Positions 132 to 41,123 of a DNA stretch of 41,307 bases are shown one piece after another (within the stretch, counting starts at the first letter, position 1; each line of letters starts with the position of its first letter). A model generated the notes under the pieces. It ran no database searches and was not told the DNA's origin. It saw only the letters and a program-made list of their open reading frames with translations. This DNA is from Minisyncoccota bacterium (GTDB lineage: Bacteria; Patescibacteriota; Microgenomatia; UBA1400; PJMF01), in assembly GCA_018646985.1 (NCBI GenBank), contig JABGTR010000023.1, forward strand, positions 1-41,307, in the 5' to 3' direction. Position numbers and translations under genes: made by a program.

Positions 132-182
132 CGTTAACACTCCAAGTAAATTACTGTCTAATTAGTAATTTAACCAATAAAT

Positions 183-204
183 CCTACTACAAGTGTAATA
201 AAAG
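183..204 (-). repeat. Family-2 repeat, copy A
   Basis: cctactacaagtgtaataaaag; 3 mismatches to copy B; just past the stop of the 214-519 gene. Confidence 0.65.
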
Positions 205-213
205 CAAAACTGC

Positions 214-519
214 TCAAACTCGATAACCTTTTTCTTTTAATGCTTGCTTGATCTCCCCCAATTCTTTCTCGATGTTTTTAATCTTAACTGCAAAATCAAT
301 CTCTTCTGCCCCTTCATCATCAATAAAATAAGTTACTGGCCTGCCAGTAGCCTGACCAATATCTCGCAGCACCTCGATTCCTGGCTGCGCTCGGCCGACT
401 TCATAAGCGCTGACTGCTTTATCAGATAGTTGGAGTTTAGTGGCTAAATCCTTCTGACTTAAACCAGCTTCTGTCCTGGCGTAGCGAATTTTTTGACTAA
501 TATTTAATCTTTTCTTCAT
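214..519 (-). CDS. XRE-family HTH transcriptional regulator
   Basis: HTH_3 signature IRYARTEAGLSQKDLATKLQLSDKAVSAYEVGRAQP. Confidence 0.9.
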   Translation of the reverse strand: MKKRLNISQKIRYARTEAGLSQKDLATKLQLSDKAVSAYEVGRAQPGIEVLRDIGQATGRPVTYFIDDEGAEEIDFAVKIKNIEKELGEIKQALKEKGYRV

Positions 520-588: not shown

Positions 589-993
589 ATGTCAGCTCTA
601 GAACCTAATACTATCTTGATTGTCGAGCCAAAACCAGACCTAGCTGAGGTTTACCGATTTTTGCCTCAAGACAGCCATCCTCTTCATATTACGTCAACCC
701 AGCGAGCGACTCAATACCTACAAGATAAAACCCCTAGTCTAGTCGTCATTAGTGCCAGTTATTCTCCAGTCCAAATATTTCATCTCTTAGAAACACTTAA
801 AAATCTCTCTAGCTCCAGTAAGCACCTAATTCCCATTATTTTCTCCATTGACCTAGAACACAAAACTAGCTTTATCCCTGGGACACGTTGGGGTGAAAAA
901 CTAGGAATCATCAATAGTCTCAGCTCAAAAAAAGAAGTAGAGTTGATTTTAGCTCGAGTTAGTAAAGAGCAAAAGAGTTTCGGCTATAACTAA
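589..993 (+). CDS. Degenerate response-regulator receiver-like protein
   Basis: Receiver-like beta strands (ILIVEPKPD, SLVVISASYSP, LIPIIFSID) without the phospho-acceptor Asp. Confidence 0.55.
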   Translation: MSALEPNTILIVEPKPDLAEVYRFLPQDSHPLHITSTQRATQYLQDKTPSLVVISASYSPVQIFHLLETLKNLSSSSKHLIPIIFSIDLEHKTSFIPGTRWGEKLGIINSLSSKKEVELILARVSKEQKSFGYN

Positions 994-1042
994 TTTTAGT
1001 TTTGTTACACCTTTGGTAGGATAGGCTTGTTTTAATAGGGTC

Positions 1043-6659: not shown

Positions 6660-7223
6660 CTAATTATCCTCAGTTGCCAATTGGCTAGCCACCACATAAG
6701 ATAACTCTATTGGAAACTGATCTAAAAACTTTTTAAAAAACTCTGTGTCACCGCCATTCCAGAGACGGACCATGATCTTAGTAATTTGACCATAATTAAG
6801 CCCGATAGAACTTAAAACATTCATGATCCATGGCCGATACTTCTGCCTATTTCTCAAATTTTTCATCAAAACTGCGTAAATAGGATTGATGTCTAAAGCT
6901 GTCGCCACTGCAAAAATATGAGAGGCCATCACCCCAATGAGCTCGGCATCAATTTGATCATCTTCTCCCAATCTTAAAACAGCTTTTAACTCGTAAAGTA
7001 AATCTCTAGCCACTAACTCCTCAGCATGATCAACAGCAGCAGCAGCTTCTTTTATTCTAGCGATGGTTAATTCATTTGCCGGAGCATCTATTTCAAAGAA
7101 ACTCATTAGGCTTGTTATTGATGCATCGCCCAACCGAAACATATCATTCCAATAATGAAGTAAGTCTCCAAACTCAGCTACGACATTGACTCTATCTTCT
7201 ACTTCCTTGTCCAAAAATTCCAA
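6660..7223 (-). CDS. Hypothetical protein
   Basis: 187-aa ORF in the same direction as its neighbours. Confidence 0.65.
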   Translation of the reverse strand: MEFLDKEVEDRVNVVAEFGDLLHYWNDMFRLGDASITSLMSFFEIDAPANELTIARIKEAAAAVDHAEELVARDLLYELKAVLRLGEDDQIDAELIGVMASHIFAVATALDINPIYAVLMKNLRNRQKYRPWIMNVLSSIGLNYGQITKIMVRLWNGGDTEFFKKFLDQFPIELSYVVASQLATEDN

Positions 7224-7823: not shown

Positions 7824-8252
7824 CTAAATCCCAGTTGACCCAAATCCACCTCGGTCATTATTATTTAATTCTATCACTCCTTCAACTTCTACTTTTTCTC
7901 TAGAGAGAATAATCAACTGAACAATTCGCTCACCTTTTTTAACTGTTACTTCTTGATCTGTAAAATTAAATAAGACTGCTCGATACTCGTCATTATCTCC
8001 ACAGTAATCCTCATCACCCACTCCAATTCCATTAGCCATCATCAAGCCTCTTTTATGCAAAGAACTACGAGCTGCAAGTAAAGCCCAATAATTTTCTGGC
8101 AATTCTAAAGCAATGTTGAGCGGCACATAACCAATTTTCCCAGGTGAAATAGCCACATCTACTCGTGCATAAAGATCTAGCGCTGCCGCTTTATCAGTTT
8201 TGTATTCTGGCAGAGGTAATGTTTCATCAAAACGCTTAATCTTAAGTTTCAT
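7824..8252 (-). CDS. dut: dUTP diphosphatase
   Basis: DKAAALDLYA, ARSSLHKRGL, GERIVQLII, RGGFGSTGI motifs. Confidence 0.92.
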   Translation of the reverse strand: MKLKIKRFDETLPLPEYKTDKAAALDLYARVDVAISPGKIGYVPLNIALELPENYWALLAARSSLHKRGLMMANGIGVGDEDYCGDNDEYRAVLFNFTDQEVTVKKGERIVQLIILSREKVEVEGVIELNNNDRGGFGSTGI

Positions 8253-15146: not shown

Positions 15147-16277
15147 TTATTGTACACCATTGGCATTTTTGACAAACCAAGTGTTGTGTTGTTTTTGTAA
15201 GTACCCTTCTAACTCTAACAAAGAAAGGGCTGTGTTTAAATCTGAAATTTTTAATTCAAGTTGCTTGGCTAAATCATCGGTTGAAAGCGGCTGGTTTAAT
15301 AAATGCCTATATATTTTTTGTTGAAACTCATCTCTGAAACTAGGTTGGCCAATGATTGCATCAACCGGAACAACCTTGCTCCAACCCATCCCGTAAACAC
15401 CCGCTTCCTCCAAAACTTCTCGAGCAGAAGTCACTAGTCTTGCTCCCTGGTTTATCAACCATTTGGTGCCCTCACTATAACGATTGGTGATTGGACCAGG
15501 CACAGCACAAATACCTCGGCCATACTCACCTGCAAACCCAGCGGTAATATGGCTACCACTTTTTTGAGCTGCCTCAATCACTAGTGTAGCCAGTGACATC
15601 CCAGCCACAATTCTATTTCTCTCGGGGAAGTTTCCTTTATGACCACTCACCCAAGGTGGGTACTCAGTCACAAAACAATTGCCTTTAGCCAACATTTTAT
15701 CGAAGAATTTTTTGTTTCCAGCTGGATAAAGATGATTAAATCCATAACCAAGTACCCCAACTGTATAGCCATCATGGGCCACTGCTTGCTGATGAGCGCA
15801 GGTGTCTACTCCATACATGAAACCTGACACAATCGTAGCTTGTGAGGCTACTAATTCTGGAACTAATTGCTTACAAACAGTACGACCATAACCCGAAATC
15901 TTTCTGGTGCCTACTACCGCTATAGGCCTCTTATTTACCCCCTGAAGACTTCCTTTTACATACAATATTAGTGGCTTATCATCAATGTTTTTTAGTAATT
16001 TAGGGTACCTTTTATCTTCACTAGTGATGACACTAATATTTTTCTGATCTAACCACCCGATATAACTTTCGGGTGTAAAGCGTTTTTTGAAATTTCTTAA
16101 TCCTTGCTGCTGCTTACTATTTAACTTACATAACTGCCAAATTTGAGCTGGCTGCTGTTGCCAAAAGTCTTCTAGTGAAACATCTAACTCTCCTAGTTTT
16201 TTAAAAACATTCCTTAAAGTCTTTCGCCCAATCCCATCCACTGCCAAAATAGCTGCAAAAAACTGTTTATCTTCCAT
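15147..16277 (-). CDS. dprA: DNA processing protein DprA/Smf
   Basis: VVGTRKISGYG, VSGFMYGVDTCAHQQA, FPERNRIVAG Rossmann-like motifs. Confidence 0.95.
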   Translation of the reverse strand: MEDKQFFAAILAVDGIGRKTLRNVFKKLGELDVSLEDFWQQQPAQIWQLCKLNSKQQQGLRNFKKRFTPESYIGWLDQKNISVITSEDKRYPKLLKNIDDKPLILYVKGSLQGVNKRPIAVVGTRKISGYGRTVCKQLVPELVASQATIVSGFMYGVDTCAHQQAVAHDGYTVGVLGYGFNHLYPAGNKKFFDKMLAKGNCFVTEYPPWVSGHKGNFPERNRIVAGMSLATLVIEAAQKSGSHITAGFAGEYGRGICAVPGPITNRYSEGTKWLINQGARLVTSAREVLEEAGVYGMGWSKVVPVDAIIGQPSFRDEFQQKIYRHLLNQPLSTDDLAKQLELKISDLNTALSLLELEGYLQKQHNTWFVKNANGVQ

Positions 16278-16299
16278 TAGTTTAAATTAACCCACCAAG

Positions 16300-16321
16300 C
16301 CTACCGCAAGTGTAGTAAAAG
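16300..16321 (-). repeat. Family-2 repeat, copy B
   Basis: cctaccgcaagtgtagtaaaag; immediately past the HigA stop; 731 bp from copy C. Confidence 0.75.
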
Positions 16322-16331
16322 TCCAATTAGT

Positions 16332-16631
16332 CTAAATACCAGAGAACTTCAAACTCACCCTACCACCAAATACACTAGCAAATCTTTTTAGAAAAGATAA
16401 ACTAGGGGTTGTCTGCATGTTTTCTACCCTAGAGATCACCGATTGTTTGGTATCCATTTTTAGCGCCAACTCTTTTTGAGTTAGATTATGCTTTATTCTG
16501 GCCTCTATCATCGCTTTTGCAGCCTCATACTCTGGACGAAACTCTTTTAAGAGCCTCCTATGTTCAGGATCTTTTCTCAATTCTTTTTTATGATCTTCCC
16601 AAGGATAGAGTTTTTTTAGATTTATTTTCAT
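16332..16631 (-). CDS. HigA-like antitoxin (XRE HTH)
   Basis: NLTQKELALKMDTKQSVISRVENMQTTPSLSFLKRFA. Confidence 0.88.
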   Translation of the reverse strand: MKINLKKLYPWEDHKKELRKDPEHRRLLKEFRPEYEAAKAMIEARIKHNLTQKELALKMDTKQSVISRVENMQTTPSLSFLKRFASVFGGRVSLKFSGI

Positions 16632-16666
16632 AATTAGAAAATATCACAATTTTGCGATAAAAACAA

Positions 16667-17029
16667 CTAGTTTTCTACCTCTCTGAGTCTCTGTAGTGCT
16701 ACTCCAATTTCTTTCTCTGGAGTTCTTTGCGTTTTCTTTATAAATCCATGTAAGATTACAAAATATCCTTGTAAATATGCTGTGTAGAATATTCTAATTG
16801 TTCTTTTTGATCTAACTCTTAATTCCCACAATGATGTATTTCTAATTTTTTTAGTATGAGGCATGCCTATTTGAGAGCCATATTCTTCTAGCAATTTGAG
16901 CAAGTAATCTACTTTTATTTTTTCTCTTGGCTCCAGAGAGTTAATGAAATCAACAGTTGGCCTCTTTCCTGATTTTGATAAGTAATAATAAATTTTAAAA
17001 ACAGACACAAAAAGAGTATCTAAAACCAA
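16667..17029 (-). CDS. HigB/RelE-type toxin (phage Gp49-like); start probably downstream of the called TTG
   Basis: KIYYYLSKSGKRPTVDFINSL…MPHTKKIRNTSLWELRVRSKRTIRIFYTAYLQGYFVILHGFIKKTQRTP. Confidence 0.88.
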   Translation of the reverse strand: MVLDTLFVSVFKIYYYLSKSGKRPTVDFINSLEPREKIKVDYLLKLLEEYGSQIGMPHTKKIRNTSLWELRVRSKRTIRIFYTAYLQGYFVILHGFIKKTQRTPEKEIGVALQRLREVEN

Positions 17030-17030
17030 G

Positions 17031-17052
17031 CCTAACTCAAGCGTAGTAAAAG
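17031..17052 (-). repeat. Family-2 repeat, copy C
   Basis: cctaactcaagcgtagtaaaag; 3 mismatches to copy B; just past the stop of the 17063 gene. Confidence 0.75.
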
Positions 17053-17062
17053 TGAAAATAGT

Positions 17063-18202
17063 TTAAACAGATTCTGTTTCAGAGGTAATTTTTGCAAATG
17101 ATTTCTCAAGACTAATAAGATTCTGTAGAACCAGAGCATCTGTCATCGCTTTATTTGGTCCATGCCCTGGCCCATAAATGACAAACTCTGCTGCTGTTAA
17201 TAATGAAAGAACTTTCACATCAACTGCCTCTAGCATTGAAAGCAAATAAGCAGCGTGGTAAATCTTGCCTACCTGATTAATTAAAGATGTATCAGCCCAA
17301 AAATTATGCTCCTGCCCTGATATTTTTAAAATGCCAGAAAAGATACCTGCAACTCTACTAAAAATACCTCGATGAGGACTGACTTTTTCTGAAAGATCTT
17401 GATAGCCTTGATATGGAGAAAACTCATCTAACATATTAGTTTGCATCCATTTTCCAGCTTGTTTAACCCGCTCTTCTTCTCTGGTTATATATTTGCAAAA
17501 ATTAGCTAACATATTCCATGTTTGATTAAGATCACCTTGATACTTACCTATAAGGTGAGTAATGGCTAATGAAAGGGACTGAGGCTCACCAGCTTCAGCT
17601 GCAGTCTGCTCATACAAATCAGCAAGCTCTAAATAAATTGGCTCATTCTGGTCATCAATACTCTCTAAACCCATTTTTCTAAAACCAGCACTGTTAACAT
17701 AGCCATAAGCATCGCCAATTTTAAGCTTGACTTGAGGTTCAACTTTAGAAAAAACTAAAGACCTTAAAACTGTAATTAGTACTCCCTTAGCATCTAATTT
17801 TCCTTTTAAGTTTAGTTTAGTAACATAACCAATTGCTTCACGAAGTGTTTTTCCCAATAACTGTGGACCTAATTTTTCTGCATATGGAATTGAGTCTAGT
17901 TCTTCTTTAGTTAACTCCTCATTTAGCATTTCTTTAAACTTTTCTAAGGTCAAAAACCCTTCTAAGCGCTGGTATTGGAGTGGAGTCTCTGGGTTCTCTG
18001 CTTGAAACTGAGCAATTCCTTCACCAATAACATCAGAAAAACTACGGAATTTTGGATTTTCTTTAAAAGAAGGCTTCTCTTCTCGTCTTATGGCATGATC
18101 AGTGCGAGCTATCCATAAATTAACGCGAGCAATTAACCCTAATAGGTCGTGAGCAAACTTGTCACTCCCCTCATGTTCATGATTGCTGTTTATTTCATTC
18201 AT
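17063..18202 (-). CDS. Hypothetical protein
   Basis: 379-aa ORF downstream of mrdA. Confidence 0.75.
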   Translation of the reverse strand: MNEINSNHEHEGSDKFAHDLLGLIARVNLWIARTDHAIRREEKPSFKENPKFRSFSDVIGEGIAQFQAENPETPLQYQRLEGFLTLEKFKEMLNEELTKEELDSIPYAEKLGPQLLGKTLREAIGYVTKLNLKGKLDAKGVLITVLRSLVFSKVEPQVKLKIGDAYGYVNSAGFRKMGLESIDDQNEPIYLELADLYEQTAAEAGEPQSLSLAITHLIGKYQGDLNQTWNMLANFCKYITREEERVKQAGKWMQTNMLDEFSPYQGYQDLSEKVSPHRGIFSRVAGIFSGILKISGQEHNFWADTSLINQVGKIYHAAYLLSMLEAVDVKVLSLLTAAEFVIYGPGHGPNKAMTDALVLQNLISLEKSFAKITSETESV

Positions 18203-18213
18203 ATTAAAGTCGC

Positions 18214-20037
18214 CTACTTCCCATACATCCAGTCTACAATCTCTTTTGCCACCTCACCAGCATCGCGAGAACCTTCTTTAAAAGGATTATCTTCGTCACT
18301 CTCTACCAGGACTGTAATGACGATCTTCTCTGGAAAACCAGCTTCCTTAACCTGTTTTATCCAAGCCCGGTGGTGCTCATCATCATCTCTGCCGACCACA
18401 TCCTTCAGTCCAGCTGTACCCATCGTCATCGTTAGCCAAGCATGCGTCTTTCTATAACCTTTCTCATCTGCTCCACCAAACTCAGAAGTGCCAGTTTTAC
18501 AAGCCACCGCTCCATTCTTAATCTGCTGCTGAGCGTTCATCTCCTCATCTCGATAAATTTCATTGTGAGGGAAAAATGGGTAGGCTGTCCCACCACTAGA
18601 ACAAGCATCTAACATCCCCAGGAGCACCAACTCCAGGTTTTCATCAGCTATCCCCAACTCACTACAGTCAGCATGATCTTTCTTGAGCAACGTCGGCTGA
18701 CAAAGGGTGCCATGGTTGGCAATCGCCTGAGTCATCTGACCCACTTGAAGTGGAGTAACTAAAATGTCACCCTGACCAATCCCCATATGAAAAGTGTTCC
18801 CCAAATACCAAGGCTCGCCAATGACTCTTTCTTTCCAAGATGGGTCAGGAACTACCCCAGCAGTTTCACCCAACAACTCAATTTTAGTAACCTGACCAAA
18901 ACCAAATAGACGTGCAAACTCAGCTAATTTATTTGGCCCCAGCCACTCAGCTACCTTATAAAAATAAATATCATTACTCCTAGATAGAGATCTTTGCAAA
19001 CTAATTTCACCCTCTGTTCTACCATATTGAGTGTAATACCAGTTAGCATATTCGTATTCACCCACCCTCAACACACCCTCATCTAAAACTACTGTTTGCG
19101 CATCAATTACCGCCTCTTCCAACCCGCCTAGAGCTGTGACTAACTTGAAAACTGATCCAGGCGGATAAGCACCACTTAGACTTCTATTAAAAAATATTTG
19201 CAAAGGATTACTCAATAAATCTTGAAGCTGTTGCTGGCGTTGCCTCTCTAAAATCACATCAGTCAACCGAGTGCTAAGCACATTGGCGTCAAAACTTGGA
19301 CTGCTTAACAAAGTTAAGACTTCACTATTACTAGCATCCATAATGACTACCGCTCCCGCTTGCCCTCCCAATGACTCCAAAGATGCTTTAGACAAATATG
19401 GATCAAGTGAGGTGGCAATATTCTGACCAATTTGGCCAGCATTTTTAGATATTAATCGCTGACGTTTTCCCAAAGCATTTATTTCATAAACTTCAGATGC
19501 AGCCTGTCCCCGGAGCCGCTGATCAAAAATCTTTTCTAATCCCATCTTGCCAATCACGTCACTCACCTTCAAAGAATTGTCTTCAATTAAATTATCTTTG
19601 GTGACAGGACCAACATATCCCAAAACATGAGCTACCGACTCTGGAAAACGATAATCTCTCTCTAAACCATATCGGACTTGAGCACTATCAGTTGCCAATA
19701 ACTGCAAAGCTTCTTCCCTAGAAATCGAGGTAGTTTTAGGATGCAGCGTCGTTGGATCATCAGTTTTCAAATAAACCCGCTTATTCCAGACCAATGACTG
19801 CTGGTATCGATCAAAAAAAACTCCTCTTTGAGCAGGAAGCTGAATGGTAAAGTAACGATTGTCATTTGCCAAATCTAAAAAATAATGACCTCTAAACAAC
19901 TGGATATCTACTAATCTGGCAAAAATTAACAAGAAAAAAAATAATATTCCCAATATAAACCAGCCCACACGAGTTGAAAAATGATAGTGTTGAACTAAAT
20001 TTCTCATCTTAAGTAAAATCGATGTCTCTTTAACCAA
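18214..20037 (-). CDS. mrdA: Penicillin-binding protein 2 (peptidoglycan transpeptidase)
   Basis: GAYPPGSVFKLVTA (SxxK), SRSN, CKTGTSEFGG (KTG); N-terminal TM. Confidence 0.95.
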   Translation of the reverse strand: MVKETSILLKMRNLVQHYHFSTRVGWFILGILFFFLLIFARLVDIQLFRGHYFLDLANDNRYFTIQLPAQRGVFFDRYQQSLVWNKRVYLKTDDPTTLHPKTTSISREEALQLLATDSAQVRYGLERDYRFPESVAHVLGYVGPVTKDNLIEDNSLKVSDVIGKMGLEKIFDQRLRGQAASEVYEINALGKRQRLISKNAGQIGQNIATSLDPYLSKASLESLGGQAGAVVIMDASNSEVLTLLSSPSFDANVLSTRLTDVILERQRQQQLQDLLSNPLQIFFNRSLSGAYPPGSVFKLVTALGGLEEAVIDAQTVVLDEGVLRVGEYEYANWYYTQYGRTEGEISLQRSLSRSNDIYFYKVAEWLGPNKLAEFARLFGFGQVTKIELLGETAGVVPDPSWKERVIGEPWYLGNTFHMGIGQGDILVTPLQVGQMTQAIANHGTLCQPTLLKKDHADCSELGIADENLELVLLGMLDACSSGGTAYPFFPHNEIYRDEEMNAQQQIKNGAVACKTGTSEFGGADEKGYRKTHAWLTMTMGTAGLKDVVGRDDDEHHRAWIKQVKEAGFPEKIVITVLVESDEDNPFKEGSRDAGEVAKEIVDWMYGK

Positions 20038-27445: not shown

Positions 27446-28033
27446 ATGCAGATTGAAACTCTCAAACTCGGTCAACTAGATACCAACTGCTACTTAGCTT
27501 GGTGTGAAATAACAGATGAAGCAATTATCATTGATCCTGCAGATGAGGGTGGATTTATTAGTGAAAAAATTCTTGAGTTAGGTCTAAAGCCAGTCGCCAT
27601 TATCCTCACCCATGGTCACTTCGACCATATTTTGGGCTTACTAGAGCTGAAGCTTAACTTTCCCCAGGTATCAATTATGATGCATGAAGCAGATCTGTTT
27701 CTGACTGAAAGCGTTCAAAAGCGAGCTCAACACTGGCTAAAAATGCAAGTCGCTCCTGCTCCCAAGATAGATAAGTTTTTAGTTGAAGGTGATCTGGTTG
27801 AGTTTGGACAAGAAGTTTTAACTATCATTCATACCCCCGGACATACCCCAGGCAGTATTTGTTTGCACGATGATCAGATGATGTTCACTGGAGATACGCT
27901 CTTCAGAGATGGGGTTATTGGCCGAACTGACCTCAGCTACTCTAGCCCCAAGAAAATGTATAAGTCGCTGGAAAAAATTAGAGAGTTGTCAGGATCACGA
28001 CAGATGTACGCCGGACATGGAGCTAGTTTTTAG
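27446..28033 (+). CDS. MBL-fold hydrolase (glyoxalase II/YcbL-like), apparently short C-terminus
   Basis: LTHGHFDHI, HTPGHTPGSICL, FTGDTLFRDGVIGRTDL; ends MYAGHGASF. Confidence 0.92.
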   Translation: MQIETLKLGQLDTNCYLAWCEITDEAIIIDPADEGGFISEKILELGLKPVAIILTHGHFDHILGLLELKLNFPQVSIMMHEADLFLTESVQKRAQHWLKMQVAPAPKIDKFLVEGDLVEFGQEVLTIIHTPGHTPGSICLHDDQMMFTGDTLFRDGVIGRTDLSYSSPKKMYKSLEKIRELSGSRQMYAGHGASF

Positions 28034-28302
28034 TCAAAGCTGAAGCTTAATTTCATCTCTAAACCTTGAGCAATTTTATATAAGAATGATAGTGATGGGT
28101 TGTAAGTACCAGACTCTAGTCTGGAAATTGCGGATTGCTTGGTACCTATTTTAGACGCCAGCTCTGTTTGAGTTAAACCTTTTTCTAATCTTTTTTCAAT
28201 TAATAAGTTTATTAAGTCATACTCTGGTCTTAGATCATCGTAAGACTTCTTGATCTCTTTATTTTTTAGAAGCTGAAATTTGAGTCGGTTGTAGCTTTTC
28301 AT
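28030..28302 (-). CDS. HigA-like antitoxin (XRE HTH), second copy
   Basis: GLTQTELASKIGTKQSAISRLESGTYNPSLSFLYKIAQGL; similar to the 16332 gene. Confidence 0.9.
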   Translation of the reverse strand: MKSYNRLKFQLLKNKEIKKSYDDLRPEYDLINLLIEKRLEKGLTQTELASKIGTKQSAISRLESGTYNPSLSFLYKIAQGLEMKLSFSFD

Positions 28303-28324: not shown

Positions 28325-28627
28325 TTATGTATGGCACAATACTTTTAATGCTTTTCTGATTTCTCTATTAGAAATTTTTTGTTTCTTCTTGATAAAACCA
28401 TGTATTAAAATTATTTTTCCACTACTAAAACAATAAAATATTCTCACCTCTTGTTTTCCTCTAACCCGAAGCTCAAATAAATTGTCTTTTATTTTTCTAG
28501 AATGAGGCATCGAGAGTTGATATCCAAACTTCTCAAGCAAATCAGTTGTTCGTAATACCTTAGCAATTGTTTTTGGCTGAAGCTTGTCGATAAAATCCTC
28601 GACACTTAAACTAACAATGATTTCCAT
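28325..28627 (-). CDS. HigB/RelE-type toxin, second copy
   Basis: MPHSRKIKDNLFELRVRGKQEVRIFYCFSSGKIILIHGFIKKKQK; similar to the 16667 gene. Confidence 0.9.
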   Translation of the reverse strand: MEIIVSLSVEDFIDKLQPKTIAKVLRTTDLLEKFGYQLSMPHSRKIKDNLFELRVRGKQEVRIFYCFSSGKIILIHGFIKKKQKISNREIRKALKVLCHT

Positions 28628-28649
28628 AAGCTAACACTACAACTCAATT

Positions 28650-28671
28650 CCCACCACAACCGTACTAAAAA
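28650..28671 (-). repeat. Family-2 repeat, divergent copy D
   Basis: cccaccacaaccgtactaaaaa; 6 mismatches to copy B; directly upstream of the second HigB. Confidence 0.4.
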
Positions 28672-28711
28672 CAAAATTGAACCCTTTAAGAATGGAGATG
28701 TCTGTAGTTTT

Positions 28712-37294: not shown

Positions 37295-38026
37295 TTAACT
37301 AAACCTACCTAACATCTCATCTAATTGCTGACGTCTCAAAACCAAACGCTCATCATTCTCAATTATTTCTTGAGCTTGCTGCAGATATTCATGAGCTAAG
37401 TTAAAATTTTTACCTTTAAAGTGTTCGGCCAAACGCAAATATCCTCCAGAAATCCAAACTTTACAATTATAGTCCGCATCAACTCCTGTATCCGCCGCTA
37501 ACTCTGCTAAAAGACTTTCAATAGCTGTCATTGCTGTTTGATCACCCAAAGCTAACTCGCAAAGTGCCAGGCGCAACTTCATCAATGCTAGAACCGCTGG
37601 TCGGTTATGCTCTGGACTGGGATAGTTTGTCATTGAGTGTACAGCTTTCTGATACATCTCTTTTGCCGGCTCTAATTCCCCTGATTCTTCTAAGAATTCG
37701 GCTAAGTTCAGCTGAGGTAAAGCTAGTGCTTGTTTATCTCCTGAATCTTCAGCAATCTCCACGCTGGACTTAACAATTGCACCCGCTAGTATCCAGTAAG
37801 GTTTAAATTTTTGTTGGCGATGGAGGTGTTTGAAAGTAATAAAAATAGAGTCTAATGCTTCAGCAAAACCCAGCTGGTCGTTTTCTTGGGCATAAGCCAA
37901 TAAAGACTGCATTCCCAACTCCAACGCTGATGATAGATTGTCACTTTCACGAGCTGCCTCTATTTGATGATGAAGCTCTCGTCCGGATAAATTTTTATCT
38001 TTTGTCATATTCATATAGTTTACCAT
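37295..38026 (-). CDS. TPR-like helical hypothetical protein
   Basis: 243-aa helical-repeat ORF. Confidence 0.65.
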   Translation of the reverse strand: MVNYMNMTKDKNLSGRELHHQIEAARESDNLSSALELGMQSLLAYAQENDQLGFAEALDSIFITFKHLHRQQKFKPYWILAGAIVKSSVEIAEDSGDKQALALPQLNLAEFLEESGELEPAKEMYQKAVHSMTNYPSPEHNRPAVLALMKLRLALCELALGDQTAMTAIESLLAELAADTGVDADYNCKVWISGGYLRLAEHFKGKNFNLAHEYLQQAQEIIENDERLVLRRQQLDEMLGRFS

Positions 38027-38030
38027 TGCC

Positions 38031-38056
38031 GGAACTAGTGGGCAGTGTTGGAACCT
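38031..38056 (-). repeat. Family-1 repeat R1
   Basis: ggaactagtgggcagtgttggaacct. Confidence 0.9.
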
Positions 38057-38059
38057 GGG

Positions 38060-38320
38060 TTAATACTGATCATGGGTCACTAAATCAAAAAAAATAAATA
38101 TTTCGTTGTTTTTAATACTCAAAACTCTTAAATCTCCTTTAATCCGGATGGCGTACTGTTCTGATCTTTTACCTTTAAGCTTATGTATCTTTAATGAGGG
38201 ATGCTGATGATTCTCTTGAAAGAGGCTAAATTGTTTAGCTAGTGCAATCTTAAGCTGAGGATCTTTTTTACAAAGTTTTTTTGCTTTTTTCTGAAATGAA
38301 TCTGTAAGATGAAACTTCAT
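38060..38320 (-). CDS. RelE/YafQ-like toxin
   Basis: FHLTDSFQKKAKKLCKKDPQL…HKLKGKRSEQYAIRIKGDLRVLSI. Confidence 0.82.
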   Translation of the reverse strand: MKFHLTDSFQKKAKKLCKKDPQLKIALAKQFSLFQENHQHPSLKIHKLKGKRSEQYAIRIKGDLRVLSIKNNEIFIFFDLVTHDQY

Positions 38321-38577
38321 AGCTTGCTAAAAAATTCCTCAGCATCTTTGACTTCTACGGTTTTGCCAGCCCCATATTCCTTAAGAGCCTCCAGGCCTTT
38401 TTCTTCAGTTTTTTTGCTCATCTCATAGATAGGAGTTGTCCCTTCTTTAAGAAAGTCTTCAGAAGCCTTGCTAATTACAAAACGGATGGTTTTGGGTAAG
38501 TTATAGCCAAATTGAGATCCATAACTGCTTAAAATGGCTGCTTCTTGATCTGTTAGAGAGAGTTGAACTTTAGTCAT
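38317..38577 (-). CDS. Antitoxin partner of the 38060 toxin
   Basis: 4-bp overlap with the toxin; small N-terminal DNA-binding-like region. Confidence 0.75.
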   Translation of the reverse strand: MTKVQLSLTDQEAAILSSYGSQFGYNLPKTIRFVISKASEDFLKEGTTPIYEMSKKTEEKGLEALKEYGAGKTVEVKDAEEFFSKL

Positions 38578-38641
38578 AATATTGACAATATAATACTAAA
38601 GCAATGTTTTGTCAATGATTATCAAATAATTCTTGACAAAA

Positions 38642-38667
38642 AGAACTAGTGAGCGGTGTTGGAACCT
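38642..38667 (-). repeat. Family-1 repeat R2
   Basis: agaactagtgagcggtgttggaacct; overlaps the stop of the 38666 gene. Confidence 0.9.
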
Positions 38668-39181
38668 ATTTTTTAACAAAAGAAATATACTTGATCCCAT
38701 CTACATATCCCCAGTAATCTAATGCCAAGAAAACTGGCGTAGTAAGCACTACATGGGTAATGAACATCAGTGGATAAAGTTGGTATGGAATCTGTACTAA
38801 AAGAGCACAAGCTGATAGCAGTAACCAACCCAATATAACTAAGAAGGTGGGAAAGAAATCTGGTTTTTTGTCTATTAAACGTTTGATTGTATCTCTTTTT
38901 TTATTCTCCTCCACCGCTTTTACAACTTCGTTCCAAGCATCTTGACCAGAGCTAAAAACTGCTGAAACAGAGAACCCATATAATAATATTCCGACTAAAA
39001 CTGGAAAGAAAAGAACGTAGTTTTCACCTTCCTTAACCCATTCATAATCTGCAGTGAAGAAATTTAATCCTGTCAGAAGAATGCTAATCATCACAACTAA
39101 GGATATTGTTTTGAAAAATTCTTTTTTGTTAAATTCTATAATTTGGTACATATCAACTTTCTCGTAGTTTAGCTTGCTCAA
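38666..39181 (-). CDS. Small membrane protein (~4 TM), unknown
   Basis: Hydrophobic segments in a 171-aa ORF. Confidence 0.7.
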   Translation of the reverse strand: MSKLNYEKVDMYQIIEFNKKEFFKTISLVVMISILLTGLNFFTADYEWVKEGENYVLFFPVLVGILLYGFSVSAVFSSGQDAWNEVVKAVEENKKRDTIKRLIDKKPDFFPTFLVILGWLLLSACALLVQIPYQLYPLMFITHVVLTTPVFLALDYWGYVDGIKYISFVKK

Positions 39182-39458
39182 TATATAAATCCAACAACTC
39201 CACCTGATCCCGATAAGTACTTAGTCTACTAAGCAGTTGAAAAACATTTTGTTCACCTGTTGGCAGGTTGCCAATGAACTCATCAGCCTCAACTTTTTTC
39301 CAAATCTCTGGATGCTGATCTTTTAGTGGTTCTATTTCAGCTATACTTTCAACAGATTCTTCCCGCAATGCCTCCAATTCTCCTACATCCATGGTATCGA
39401 GGTTTCTTTTGGGCTTAGTTTCTATAAATAACACACTAATAGATAGTATCTCATACAT
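39153..39458 (-). CDS. Hypothetical acidic protein; start uncertain (internal Met MDVGELEALREE is plausible)
   Basis: ORF overlaps the 38666 gene; called ATG directly abuts a terminator hairpin. Confidence 0.55.
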   Translation of the reverse strand: MYEILSISVLFIETKPKRNLDTMDVGELEALREESVESIAEIEPLKDQHPEIWKKVEADEFIGNLPTGEQNVFQLLSRLSTYRDQVELLDLYIEQAKLRES

Positions 39459-39460
39459 TA

Positions 39461-39486
39461 AAAAAGACCTATTTAAAGGTCTTTTA
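39461..39486. terminator. Bidirectional-type terminator hairpin
   Basis: aaaaaagacctatttaaaggtctttta: stem AAAGACCT/AGGTCTTT with flanking A/T tracts. Confidence 0.75.
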
Positions 39487-39497
39487 TTGCTTTTGCA

Positions 39498-39523
39498 GGG
39501 ACTAGTGGACGATGTTCGAACCT
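39498..39523 (-). repeat. Family-1 repeat R3
   Basis: gggactagtggacgatgttcgaacct. Confidence 0.9.
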
Positions 39524-39527
39524 ATTT

Positions 39528-39839
39528 TTACAAACTCAATCTAGTTTTACCTTGAGCATATTGGTTGATTAGGGTACTTAACAAAGTTTGATAAGGGATG
39601 TTGTTGCGCTTTGCTTTGGCTTTGACTTTAATCAAGTCAAGCTGATTAACTCTAATAGTAATAGGCTTAGAAAGTTTAAGCTCCAAGTATTTGGTTGCAG
39701 CTTCTGCAAGCATTTTTTTTGTTTGTTTTAGATCTGTGGCTTCTTCATACTCATCTCTCTCAAAGGCTTCTTCTAGCAACTGCTCTTCTTTATCTAAAAT
39801 TAAATTATTAAACGGATTTTTCTTTTGTTTATTTTTCAT
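39528..39839 (-). CDS. CopG/BrnA-type antitoxin-like
   Basis: ITIRVNQLDLIKVKAKAKRNNIPYQTLLSTLINQYAQGK ribbon-helix-helix-like C-terminus. Confidence 0.8.
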   Translation of the reverse strand: MKNKQKKNPFNNLILDKEEQLLEEAFERDEYEEATDLKQTKKMLAEAATKYLELKLSKPITIRVNQLDLIKVKAKAKRNNIPYQTLLSTLINQYAQGKTRLSL

Positions 39840-40123
39840 CGCCGACCTCCTTTTAGGTATTTCTTGGTAAATACTCTGCTTGGATATACTGTTTTTAAAA
39901 ATATTTCTTTTTTCTTCTTATTAATTACATATGGAACTGCATAAGCATAGTTATCAATTTCAATAATGTAAATCTTTTGATTGGTTCTTTGACTATTGGG
40001 GTGACTAATATCTGCTAAGATTTTTTCTTTAGCAATTGCTTTAATCACATCGTCAAAACAAACCTCTCTAGTAGCTCTTAATAATTCATTCTTTTCTAAG
40101 TTGAAATTAATATCAAAAGCCAT
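39836..40123 (-). CDS. BrnT/DUF4258-like toxin
   Basis: CFDDVIKAIAKEKILADISHPN…IYIIEIDNYAYAVPYV…IFLKTVYPSRVFTKKYL; overlaps antitoxin by 4 bp. Confidence 0.78.
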   Translation of the reverse strand: MAFDINFNLEKNELLRATREVCFDDVIKAIAKEKILADISHPNSQRTNQKIYIIEIDNYAYAVPYVINKKKKEIFLKTVYPSRVFTKKYLKGGRR

Positions 40124-40205
40124 AGCTAAATATTAGCACTACGTACATCTTTTGTCAATACAAAGCAAACAATTGTTTCAGTGGTAATTGCAGCCATAGC
40201 TTGCA

Positions 40206-40231
40206 GGGACTAGTGGACGGTGGTGGAACCT
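40206..40231 (-). repeat. Family-1 repeat R4
   Basis: gggactagtggacggtggtggaacct. Confidence 0.9.
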
Positions 40232-40235
40232 ATTT

Positions 40236-41123
40236 TTATTCTTGCTCTAACATCTTTTTTTCTGCATTCAAAAAAGAATCTACCTCAACATCAAGCAACA
40301 ATGCTCTCCATTCCCATACCCATTGAGGGACTTCCTCTTCAGGTATGTCTGCGGGGAAAACATCATCGATTGCCTTAATTAAATAACCCACTTCTGATGT
40401 GCCTGGTAAATCTTCTTTCATTGAAGCCACTATCTCCGCTTTTACATCTTCAAAATCAGCATAGGGGTATGAATACTTTGCAGCTAATTGATATATCTCT
40501 TCTTTTTTTGCCAGTTTCTCATAAAGAGGTTCAAAAAATACTTTATTGGGAATAAAAGTAACTCCAATAGCGGGAAGTAATCCATAACTCAAATATCTTC
40601 GCATAGCTCTTTGTGATAATTCTAATGCGCCAATCGACGCCCTAAGTATTTCTTCTTTAGTAACAATCTTAAATACGGGATGGTCATCTTCCCAAAGAAA
40701 AACTTTTTCTGGTTCAAGATCTGCATAAATCTTAATATCACCCAATCCAAGGCTTTCTAATAAAAAGGGCCTGACTCTACTCAATAGCCAAGAAACACCC
40801 ATAATATCCAGATCATCAATTTCTTTGTATAAACCAGCACTCTCCCGACCTTCTTGTAAATCATTAATCATTCTTCTGACACTATACCTTCCTTTAAAAT
40901 CTCTTCCATAAAAATGAATTTTTCTTACTTTCACTCTTGAGTTTGGTAGCGACTCTGGGTCGTCAACAATTAATGACGATTCACTTAGATCTGTCACCTC
41001 AGGCATATTAAAAGAGAAAATCAAATCAATTTCAAATTTCAGTCTCAATTTAGTAGATATCTCATAATCAAATAAATTAAAGTAAGCAAACATCATTTTA
41101 TTAAAATCTGGATTGGGGCTCAA
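40236..41123 (-). CDS. Hypothetical protein, probably missing its N-terminus
   Basis: Frame stays open upstream of the TTG (…RGKFIKAAENLSELIIGDLL-SPNPDFNK…) until an in-frame TAA inside the IS end hairpin. Confidence 0.6.
   Translation of the reverse strand: MSPNPDFNKMMFAYFNLFDYEISTKLRLKFEIDLIFSFNMPEVTDLSESSLIVDDPESLPNSRVKVRKIHFYGRDFKGRYSVRRMINDLQEGRESAGLYKEIDDLDIMGVSWLLSRVRPFLLESLGLGDIKIYADLEPEKVFLWEDDHPVFKIVTKEEILRASIGALELSQRAMRRYLSYGLLPAIGVTFIPNKVFFEPLYEKLAKKEEIYQLAAKYSYPYADFEDVKAEIVASMKEDLPGTSEVGYLIKAIDDVFPADIPEEEVPQWVWEWRALLLDVEVDSFLNAEKKMLEQE

Follow-up and report, generated by a model that had tools for sequence, protein, structure and literature searches.

A HigBA-like toxin-antitoxin (TA) pair in the genome of a member of the Patescibacteria lies between two direct repeats, just upstream of dprA. 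The first-pass annotation took this to be an inserted cassette with the repeats as its boundaries. The question raised by the locus is whether the repeats mark the limits of a mobile unit or belong to the genes that follow them. The stretch of DNA analysed, referred to here as the window, is 41,307 nucleotides long.

Repeats and genes at the mrdA-dprA junction

A pattern search of the whole 41.3-kb window for the 29-nt repeat identified two copies without mismatches, at 16294-16322 and 17025-17053, exactly where they had been reported, with a chance expectation of 0 based on 100 dinucleotide shuffles of the window. Ungapped extension of the two copies gives 43 nt at 84% identity and a spacing of 731, in agreement with the 731-bp unit of the first-pass annotation. 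The description of the surroundings was also accurate. Copy 1 starts just past the stop of the antitoxin gene, and copy 2 lies between the stop of a 379-aa gene and the toxin.

The toxin gene (16667..17008, minus strand) encodes a 113 aa HigB-like protein of the Gp49/RelE superfamily (Pfam Gp49, E 1e-22; PDB 6af3_A HigB, E 4e-16). The antitoxin gene (16332..16631, minus) encodes a HigA-like XRE protein of 99 aa (HTH_3, E 5e-13), with a weak match to HigA 6af3_B. These matches bear out the naming of the pair as HigBA-like, and two features of a type II HigBA system are present, an XRE antitoxin gene being directly downstream of a RelE/HigB-family toxin gene. The closest solved relatives of the pair are the pneumococcal HigB and HigA; the first protein is predicted to act as a toxin. 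Between the two genes, a near-palindrome, ATCGCAAAATTGTGAT on the minus strand, can be read directly at 16643..16658, with no strand assigned, and is likely to be the operator of a putative internal promoter, bound by the antitoxin. Downstream of the pair is dprA (15147..16277, minus; DNA_processg_A, E 4e-74, and DprA_WH). Upstream is the 379-aa gene (17063..18202, minus), a hypothetical gene without a match in Pfam, NCBIfam, or PADLOC; no such gene was seen at the mrdA-dprA junction of three relatives (G001, G002, and G005).

Several known kinds of repeat were considered and rejected. Neither copy forms a hairpin, the minimum free energies of 0 to -1.8 kcal/mol being no better than those of shuffles, which discounts both an integron attC site and an intrinsic terminator. 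The 7-nt centres differ between the copies (CGCAAGT vs CTCAAGC), and a pdif/Xer module is discounted by these non-identical central regions.

The window also contains a main array (38026-40238), in which a repeat of about 25 nt (GGACTAGTGGACGGTGKTGGAACCTA) is present four times, at gene 3' ends and 6-84 nt before the next gene. As the first-pass annotation noted, this repeat differs in sequence from that at the HigBA site. Single copies of it are found in three relatives (G001, G021, and G023) and two in G002, and there are none in the other sampled families of the order. It belongs to another class of repeat and is possibly a true cassette site.

The motif across the genome and its relatives

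The whole of the genome to which the window belongs (G000; 881,232 bases in 45 contigs) was scanned with an iterated position-weight matrix (PWM) of the repeat. This converged on 28 hits, or 26 unique sites once two contig-overlap duplicates were dropped, with scores of 26.7-53.8; the maximum score in a control genome of the same size, generated by a first-order Markov model, was 15.8. The motif is about 50 nt long and, on the strand opposite to that of the first-pass annotation, reads roughly AACCAATTTnnnTTTTRYTACACTTnTGGTAGGCATnnnnTGTTTTA. The motifs are mostly intergenic and point into genes, with a start codon 8-9 nt past the end of the motif in about half of cases. Open reading frames of at least 100 aa make up 89% of this genome, and 21 of the 26 boxes are outside them.

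The genes behind the motif fall into several groups. Those for DNA processing are dprA, radC, recA, ssb, comM (ChlI-domain), and recQ. The TA group has two HigBA pairs, a Phd gene and a MazE/AbrB gene that each have a PIN-like gene after them, a HEPN gene with a nucleotidyltransferase-like gene, an ORF6N gene with a Fic-like gene as the second of the pair, and the small ORFs that separate rpsO from pnp. The remaining genes encode an exported lamin-tail-domain (LTD) protein, two exported LamG-like proteins that are paralogues, small proteins without known function, and four tRNA-like RNAs. In these lists Pfam confirms the first genes of TA pairs, ChlI, LTD, and RadC; the names given to the TA partner genes and to recA, ssb, recQ, pnp, and rpsO come from inspection of their sequences by eye. 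The rpsO-pnp region (L053, C30:22525-23147) is a second site at which two motif copies, 573 nt apart, bracket small ORFs; the motifs are paired here because the downstream gene, pnp, has one too.

At the HigBA locus, each repeat is part of a longer motif that reads into a gene. Copy 2 corresponds to the motif of the toxin gene (17017..17066, minus; PWM 37.3; sequence-model E 8e-7 in its own genome), with the core box CTACGCTTGAGTTAG at 17032-17046. It covers the TTG at 17029 that had been assigned mechanically as the start of the toxin ORF. The GTG at 17008, 8 nt past the motif, is the likely start instead, since start codons are often found 8-9 nt past the motif. Copy 1 corresponds to the motif of dprA (16286..16335, minus; PWM 47.0), with the core box CTACACTTGCGGTAG at 16301-16315 and the dprA ATG 8 nt past the motif. 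The dprA transcript is probably leaderless, as many of the mRNAs behind the motif are likely to be, because the start codon is about where transcription should begin.

Three copies that the first-pass annotation missed lie elsewhere in the window. The whole-window repeat search found one at 177-219, within a motif (169..218, minus; PWM 45.4) that points off the edge of the window; on another contig (C32) this stretch is followed by a MazE/AbrB-like gene and then a PIN-like gene. A second (985..1034, plus; PWM 46.1) is 8 nt before radC (1043-1708, plus; RadC, E 3e-34). The third (28636..28685, minus; PWM 33.7) precedes by 8 nt the toxin gene of the second HigBA pair (28325-28627, minus; HigB-like; Gp49, E 2e-21), which is followed by its antitoxin gene (28030-28302, minus; HTH_3, E 4e-16).

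These copies bear directly on the mobile-cassette reading, in which the repeats are recombination sites of an integron-like, pdif/Xer-like, or direct-repeat transposon system. It has in its favour that one TA is flanked by two direct copies, that each repeat can be divided into a 7-nt centre and two flanking arms of 11 nt, that some relatives have a single copy and no TA, and that toxin homologues are patchy, being found in 20 of 52 relatives. However, the repeats are not restricted to boundaries. About 23 other copies, mostly single, are before unrelated genes and bracket nothing, the orientation of the motif and its distance to start codons are nearly fixed, orthologous genes of other genera have the box without a TA, the 7-nt centres vary between copies, and no attC-like hairpin is formed. 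A mobile cassette is therefore very improbable here, and with most of the 26 unique copies before other genes, a cassette bounded by these repeats was rejected.

The motif is conserved beyond this genome, with and without the TA. In a relative of the same genus (G001), GTTACTACACTTGGTGTAATCAATCCATGTTTTACTAGTGAGATG is present before dprA and there is no TA. In a relative of another genus (G005, of which 796 kb were read), the box and dprA come directly after mrdA, again with no TA. A matrix trained on promoters of G005 only places TCACACTTCTTGTAA, with an ATAAT-type -10 after it, ahead of dprA, ssb, comM, recA, recQ, comF, and radC. It is also found there before LamG-like and LTD proteins, three tRNA-like RNAs, and two RelB-like antitoxin genes with toxin-like partners. 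The top 14 boxes in G005 score 27.0-38.0, and no control score exceeds 16.5; the radC box has a score of 21.6, and the hit list merges with noise below about 22 bits. The dprA box is found in G001, G005, G011, G014, G015, G021, and G028.

Regions upstream of dprA, comM, and ssb were surveyed in 38-52 relatives. The core box is present in 27 of 63 regions from the same family and in none of 21 from other families, with 0.0088 expected per region by background; the count of 27 is descriptive, as the regular expression for the core box was tuned after these sequences had been viewed, and 8 of the 27 come from G000, G001, and G005. The box is exactly 38 nt from the comM start in 6 of the 7 genomes that have a comM box. 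It has diverged between genera, ending GGTAGG in the genome of the window and TGTAA or TGTCA in others, and several genera of the family have no match to the strict box pattern. The DNA-uptake pore is encoded by comEC, which has no box in three relatives and was not found in the genome of the window. The term 'competence regulon' is thus only partly apt and 'DNA-processing regulon' is the safer name.

The mrdA-dprA junction itself (16286-18202; L071, L099, and L081) is variable. The genome of the window has HigBA and the 379-aa gene here, G001 has an opposite-strand gene, and G005 has nothing. In G002, of the same genus (GenBank JAHJBU010000086.1), the end of mrdA is followed by an orphan antitoxin gene, the box, an 81-aa ORF, and dprA. 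Identity between G002 and the window is 79% from ATCGCAAAATTGTGAT through the antitoxin and the toxin is absent; ATCGCAAAATTGTGAT itself is identical letter for letter upstream of the orphan homologue (locus L099). A decayed first motif upstream of this orphan antitoxin was suspected by eye and rejected, the best PWM score being negative. At toxin-homologue loci the box was found only in G000 (twice) and G002, with the ORF not located at many of the loci.

The first-pass annotation expected an empty site to carry one repeat copy and no TA. G001 and G005 do have one copy and no TA at this junction, but the copy is dprA's own conserved, predicted promoter element and probably not an excision scar. 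The repeats as cassette boundaries were not supported: they are transcription-signal-like elements that are kept independently of the TA, which is the situation that the first-pass annotation itself had named as refuting its reading. They are before dprA in other genomes without the TA, and in the genome of the window they also precede recA, ssb, comM, radC, and recQ.

It is likely that the TA has been gained and lost at this variable junction; nothing shows that the repeats were responsible. They could act passively, as a homologous-deletion site at which the TA is removed between the tandem motif copies and one dprA promoter is left. The 84% identity over 43 nt, the variable content of the junction, and the TA-less state of G001 and G005, which such a deletion would leave, are consistent with this. 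However, what is missing in G002 does not run from motif to motif, since only the toxin is absent and the antitoxin and box are retained; short imperfect repeats rarely recombine, and the TA-less state may simply be ancestral. Such a hinge is unlikely.

The reading that accounts best for the locus, and in which we have high confidence, is that the direct repeats are two copies of the promoter element of one multi-gene regulon, one for the toxin and the other for dprA. On this reading, the repeats are present because two adjacent transcription units belong to the same regulon. The regulon joins DNA-processing genes, with comF in one genus, to TA modules, exported proteins, and tRNA-like RNAs. 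The HigBA pair would in this way be wired into a DNA-processing regulon, and this regulon does not appear to have been described.

Possible regulators and comparison with known systems

The element is a 15-bp imperfect dyad, with a family form close to YTACASTTnnTGTMA and, in the other genus, TCACACTTCTTGTAA. A constant spacing of about 17 bp separates its CACTTC part from a -10-like hexamer. In G005 the spacing is CACTTC-17-GATAAT, so that the 15-bp dyad would span about -38 to -24; the -10 is good there and the -35 poor. This layout suggests a promoter of the activator-dependent type; the box may also serve a repressor or a sigma factor. In the proposed mechanism, a DNA-binding factor that recognizes the box, probably an activator that replaces the -35 contact, would switch on all members together. 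The motif copy of the toxin gene would drive the HigB-like toxin, and the antitoxin by read-through, and the other copy would drive dprA. The internal operator of HigBA would let the antitoxin be made and autoregulated while the regulon is off.

Were the box a LexA operator and the set an SOS regulon, LexA would repress these genes and DNA damage would free dprA, recA, ssb, and the toxins. A standard-looking LexA is encoded in all of G000, G001, G002, G005, G011, and G015, genes such as recA, ssb, recQ, and radC suit a damage response, and a dyad overlapping the -35 region is as expected of a LexA operator. The resemblance thus extends to the targets recA, ssb, and TA genes and to the dyad near -35. 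It breaks down at lexA itself, which is normally autoregulated but has no box upstream in any of these six genomes, and the poor presumed -35 hexamer, CACTTC, suits an activator better than a repressor. This makes LexA a rather unlikely regulator. The upstream regions of lexA (L246, L245, L247, L248, and L249) share a conserved sequence around TTCGGGAAATYTACGCCCGAAG, which is unrelated to the regulon box.

About equally doubtful is recognition of the box by an alternative sigma factor of the ECF type, comparable to ComX of the streptococci. The motif is long and asymmetric with fixed spacing, which suits a sigma-factor promoter, and one or two small sigma factors are present besides the housekeeping one in each tested genome. 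The gene content also overlaps the pneumococcal ComX (sigma-X) late competence regulon, which includes dprA, radC, ssb, and the recA operon behind an MCGAATA core (PMC6560143). However, neither small sigma factor tracks the motif or occurs in all of the genomes with the box: type A is in G000 and G005 and absent from G001 and G002; type B is in G001, G002, G005, G010, and G016 and absent from G000, where the sequence after its first codons is another. In addition, the -10 in G005 is TATAAT-like, as for a housekeeping sigma factor. The place of the missing type in G000 (L050, C11:48184-48870) retains only the initial codons of an ECF sigma gene, after which comes a NUDIX/IPP-isomerase-like ORF; the sigma gene is intact in G001 and G002 and has apparently been lost here, next to a pilin-like gene cluster. 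Activators of the PafBC type with a WYL domain were also considered and rejected, PF13280 being found in one of six genomes and in neither G000 nor G005.

The ComX system is among the closest known ones. In both cases one long promoter motif is before dprA, radC, ssb, and recA (as the recA operon in the pneumococcus), but here the motif is another one, comEC is outside the regulon, and no sigma factor tracks the box. The S. pneumoniae HigBA (PDB 6af3) is similar in sequence in both toxin and antitoxin, and differs in that here an external regulon promoter would control the pair.

A striking parallel is toxTA of Haemophilus influenzae (HI0660/HI0659), shown by RNA-seq and mutants to be competence-regulated as part of the CRP-S/Sxy regulon. 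It is HigBA-like by structure prediction, with an internal promoter that is repressed by the antitoxin, and deletions of the toxin are frequent (PMC6957337). Both are HigBA-like pairs with the toxin gene first and the XRE antitoxin gene second. In both the toxin is under a promoter common to DNA-uptake or DNA-processing genes, represented here by the putative promoter motif before dprA, recA, ssb, comM, and radC. The second promoter, which in Haemophilus has been shown to lie inside the pair and to be under antitoxin control, has a predicted counterpart here at the near-palindrome. Toxin deletions that spare the antitoxin are common in Haemophilus and are seen once here, in G002. The systems differ in that the box described here is unrelated to CRP-S and that several TA families are under one promoter.

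tRNA-like RNAs and the meaning of the proposed regulon

Directly past the motif there are tRNA-like RNAs, four in G000, three in G005, and at least one each in G001 and G002. Those of G000 are at L048:2192-2390 (C45), L019 (about 6690-6870), L039 (about 7910-8095), and L009 (about 1090-1275); those of G005 are at L131 (about 18480-18690) and at G005:C1:508021 and 587108; further loci are L101 (from 1550) and L102 (from 1549). They have an acceptor-like stem, which is extended in G000, a D-arm-like hairpin, an anticodon-like arm, a T-arm and, in two of the G005 copies, a CCA end. They were not called by ARAGORN or Rfam, where sub-threshold matches include tmRNA and tRNA-Sec, and an alignment made for a covariance model retained the T-arm only.

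In the four G000 copies and the G001 copy, 12-14 nt perfectly complementary to the anticodon-like arm are found 60-100 nt further on, a longer stretch than in any of 300 shuffles of each. The perfect stretch in G005 is only 9 nt, which is not beyond shuffles, and the predicted folds there pair a longer imperfect stretch; complementarity in the G002 copy is at chance level. A terminator comes after the complementary stretch and, in several copies, a TTGaca/TATAAT-like promoter can be seen by eye just before it. Judged by these sequence features, the RNAs are candidates for an RNA-RNA toxin-antitoxin system, a tRNA decoy, or a new class of sRNA.

The regulon box is, to our knowledge, unlike any known, and searches of an open-access library gave no description of such a box in the Patescibacteria. 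We know of almost no information on gene regulation in the Patescibacteria beyond a few cultured Saccharibacteria. In the Patescibacteria com genes are widely conserved, and the Saccharibacteria have been shown to be naturally competent (PMC10633639). Recurring across many genera of a single family before dprA, recA, ssb, comM, radC, and recQ, the box offers a regulon that can be tested. With Haemophilus toxTA, this is a second and apparently independent link between HigBA and DNA processing, so that the reasons for which toxins enter regulons of this kind can be sought by comparison. The locus also calls for caution with similar arrangements, as direct repeats flanking a TA can be two promoters of one regulon.

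Tentatively, this family of Patescibacteria may have its own recombination or competence-like regulon, which would co-induce strand-processing genes and growth-arresting modules. These modules would comprise at least six protein TA systems and a new class of tRNA-mimicking RNAs, each with an apparent, separately transcribed antisense RNA after it against the anticodon arm. If this is true, the cells would stop translating while repairing or integrating DNA.
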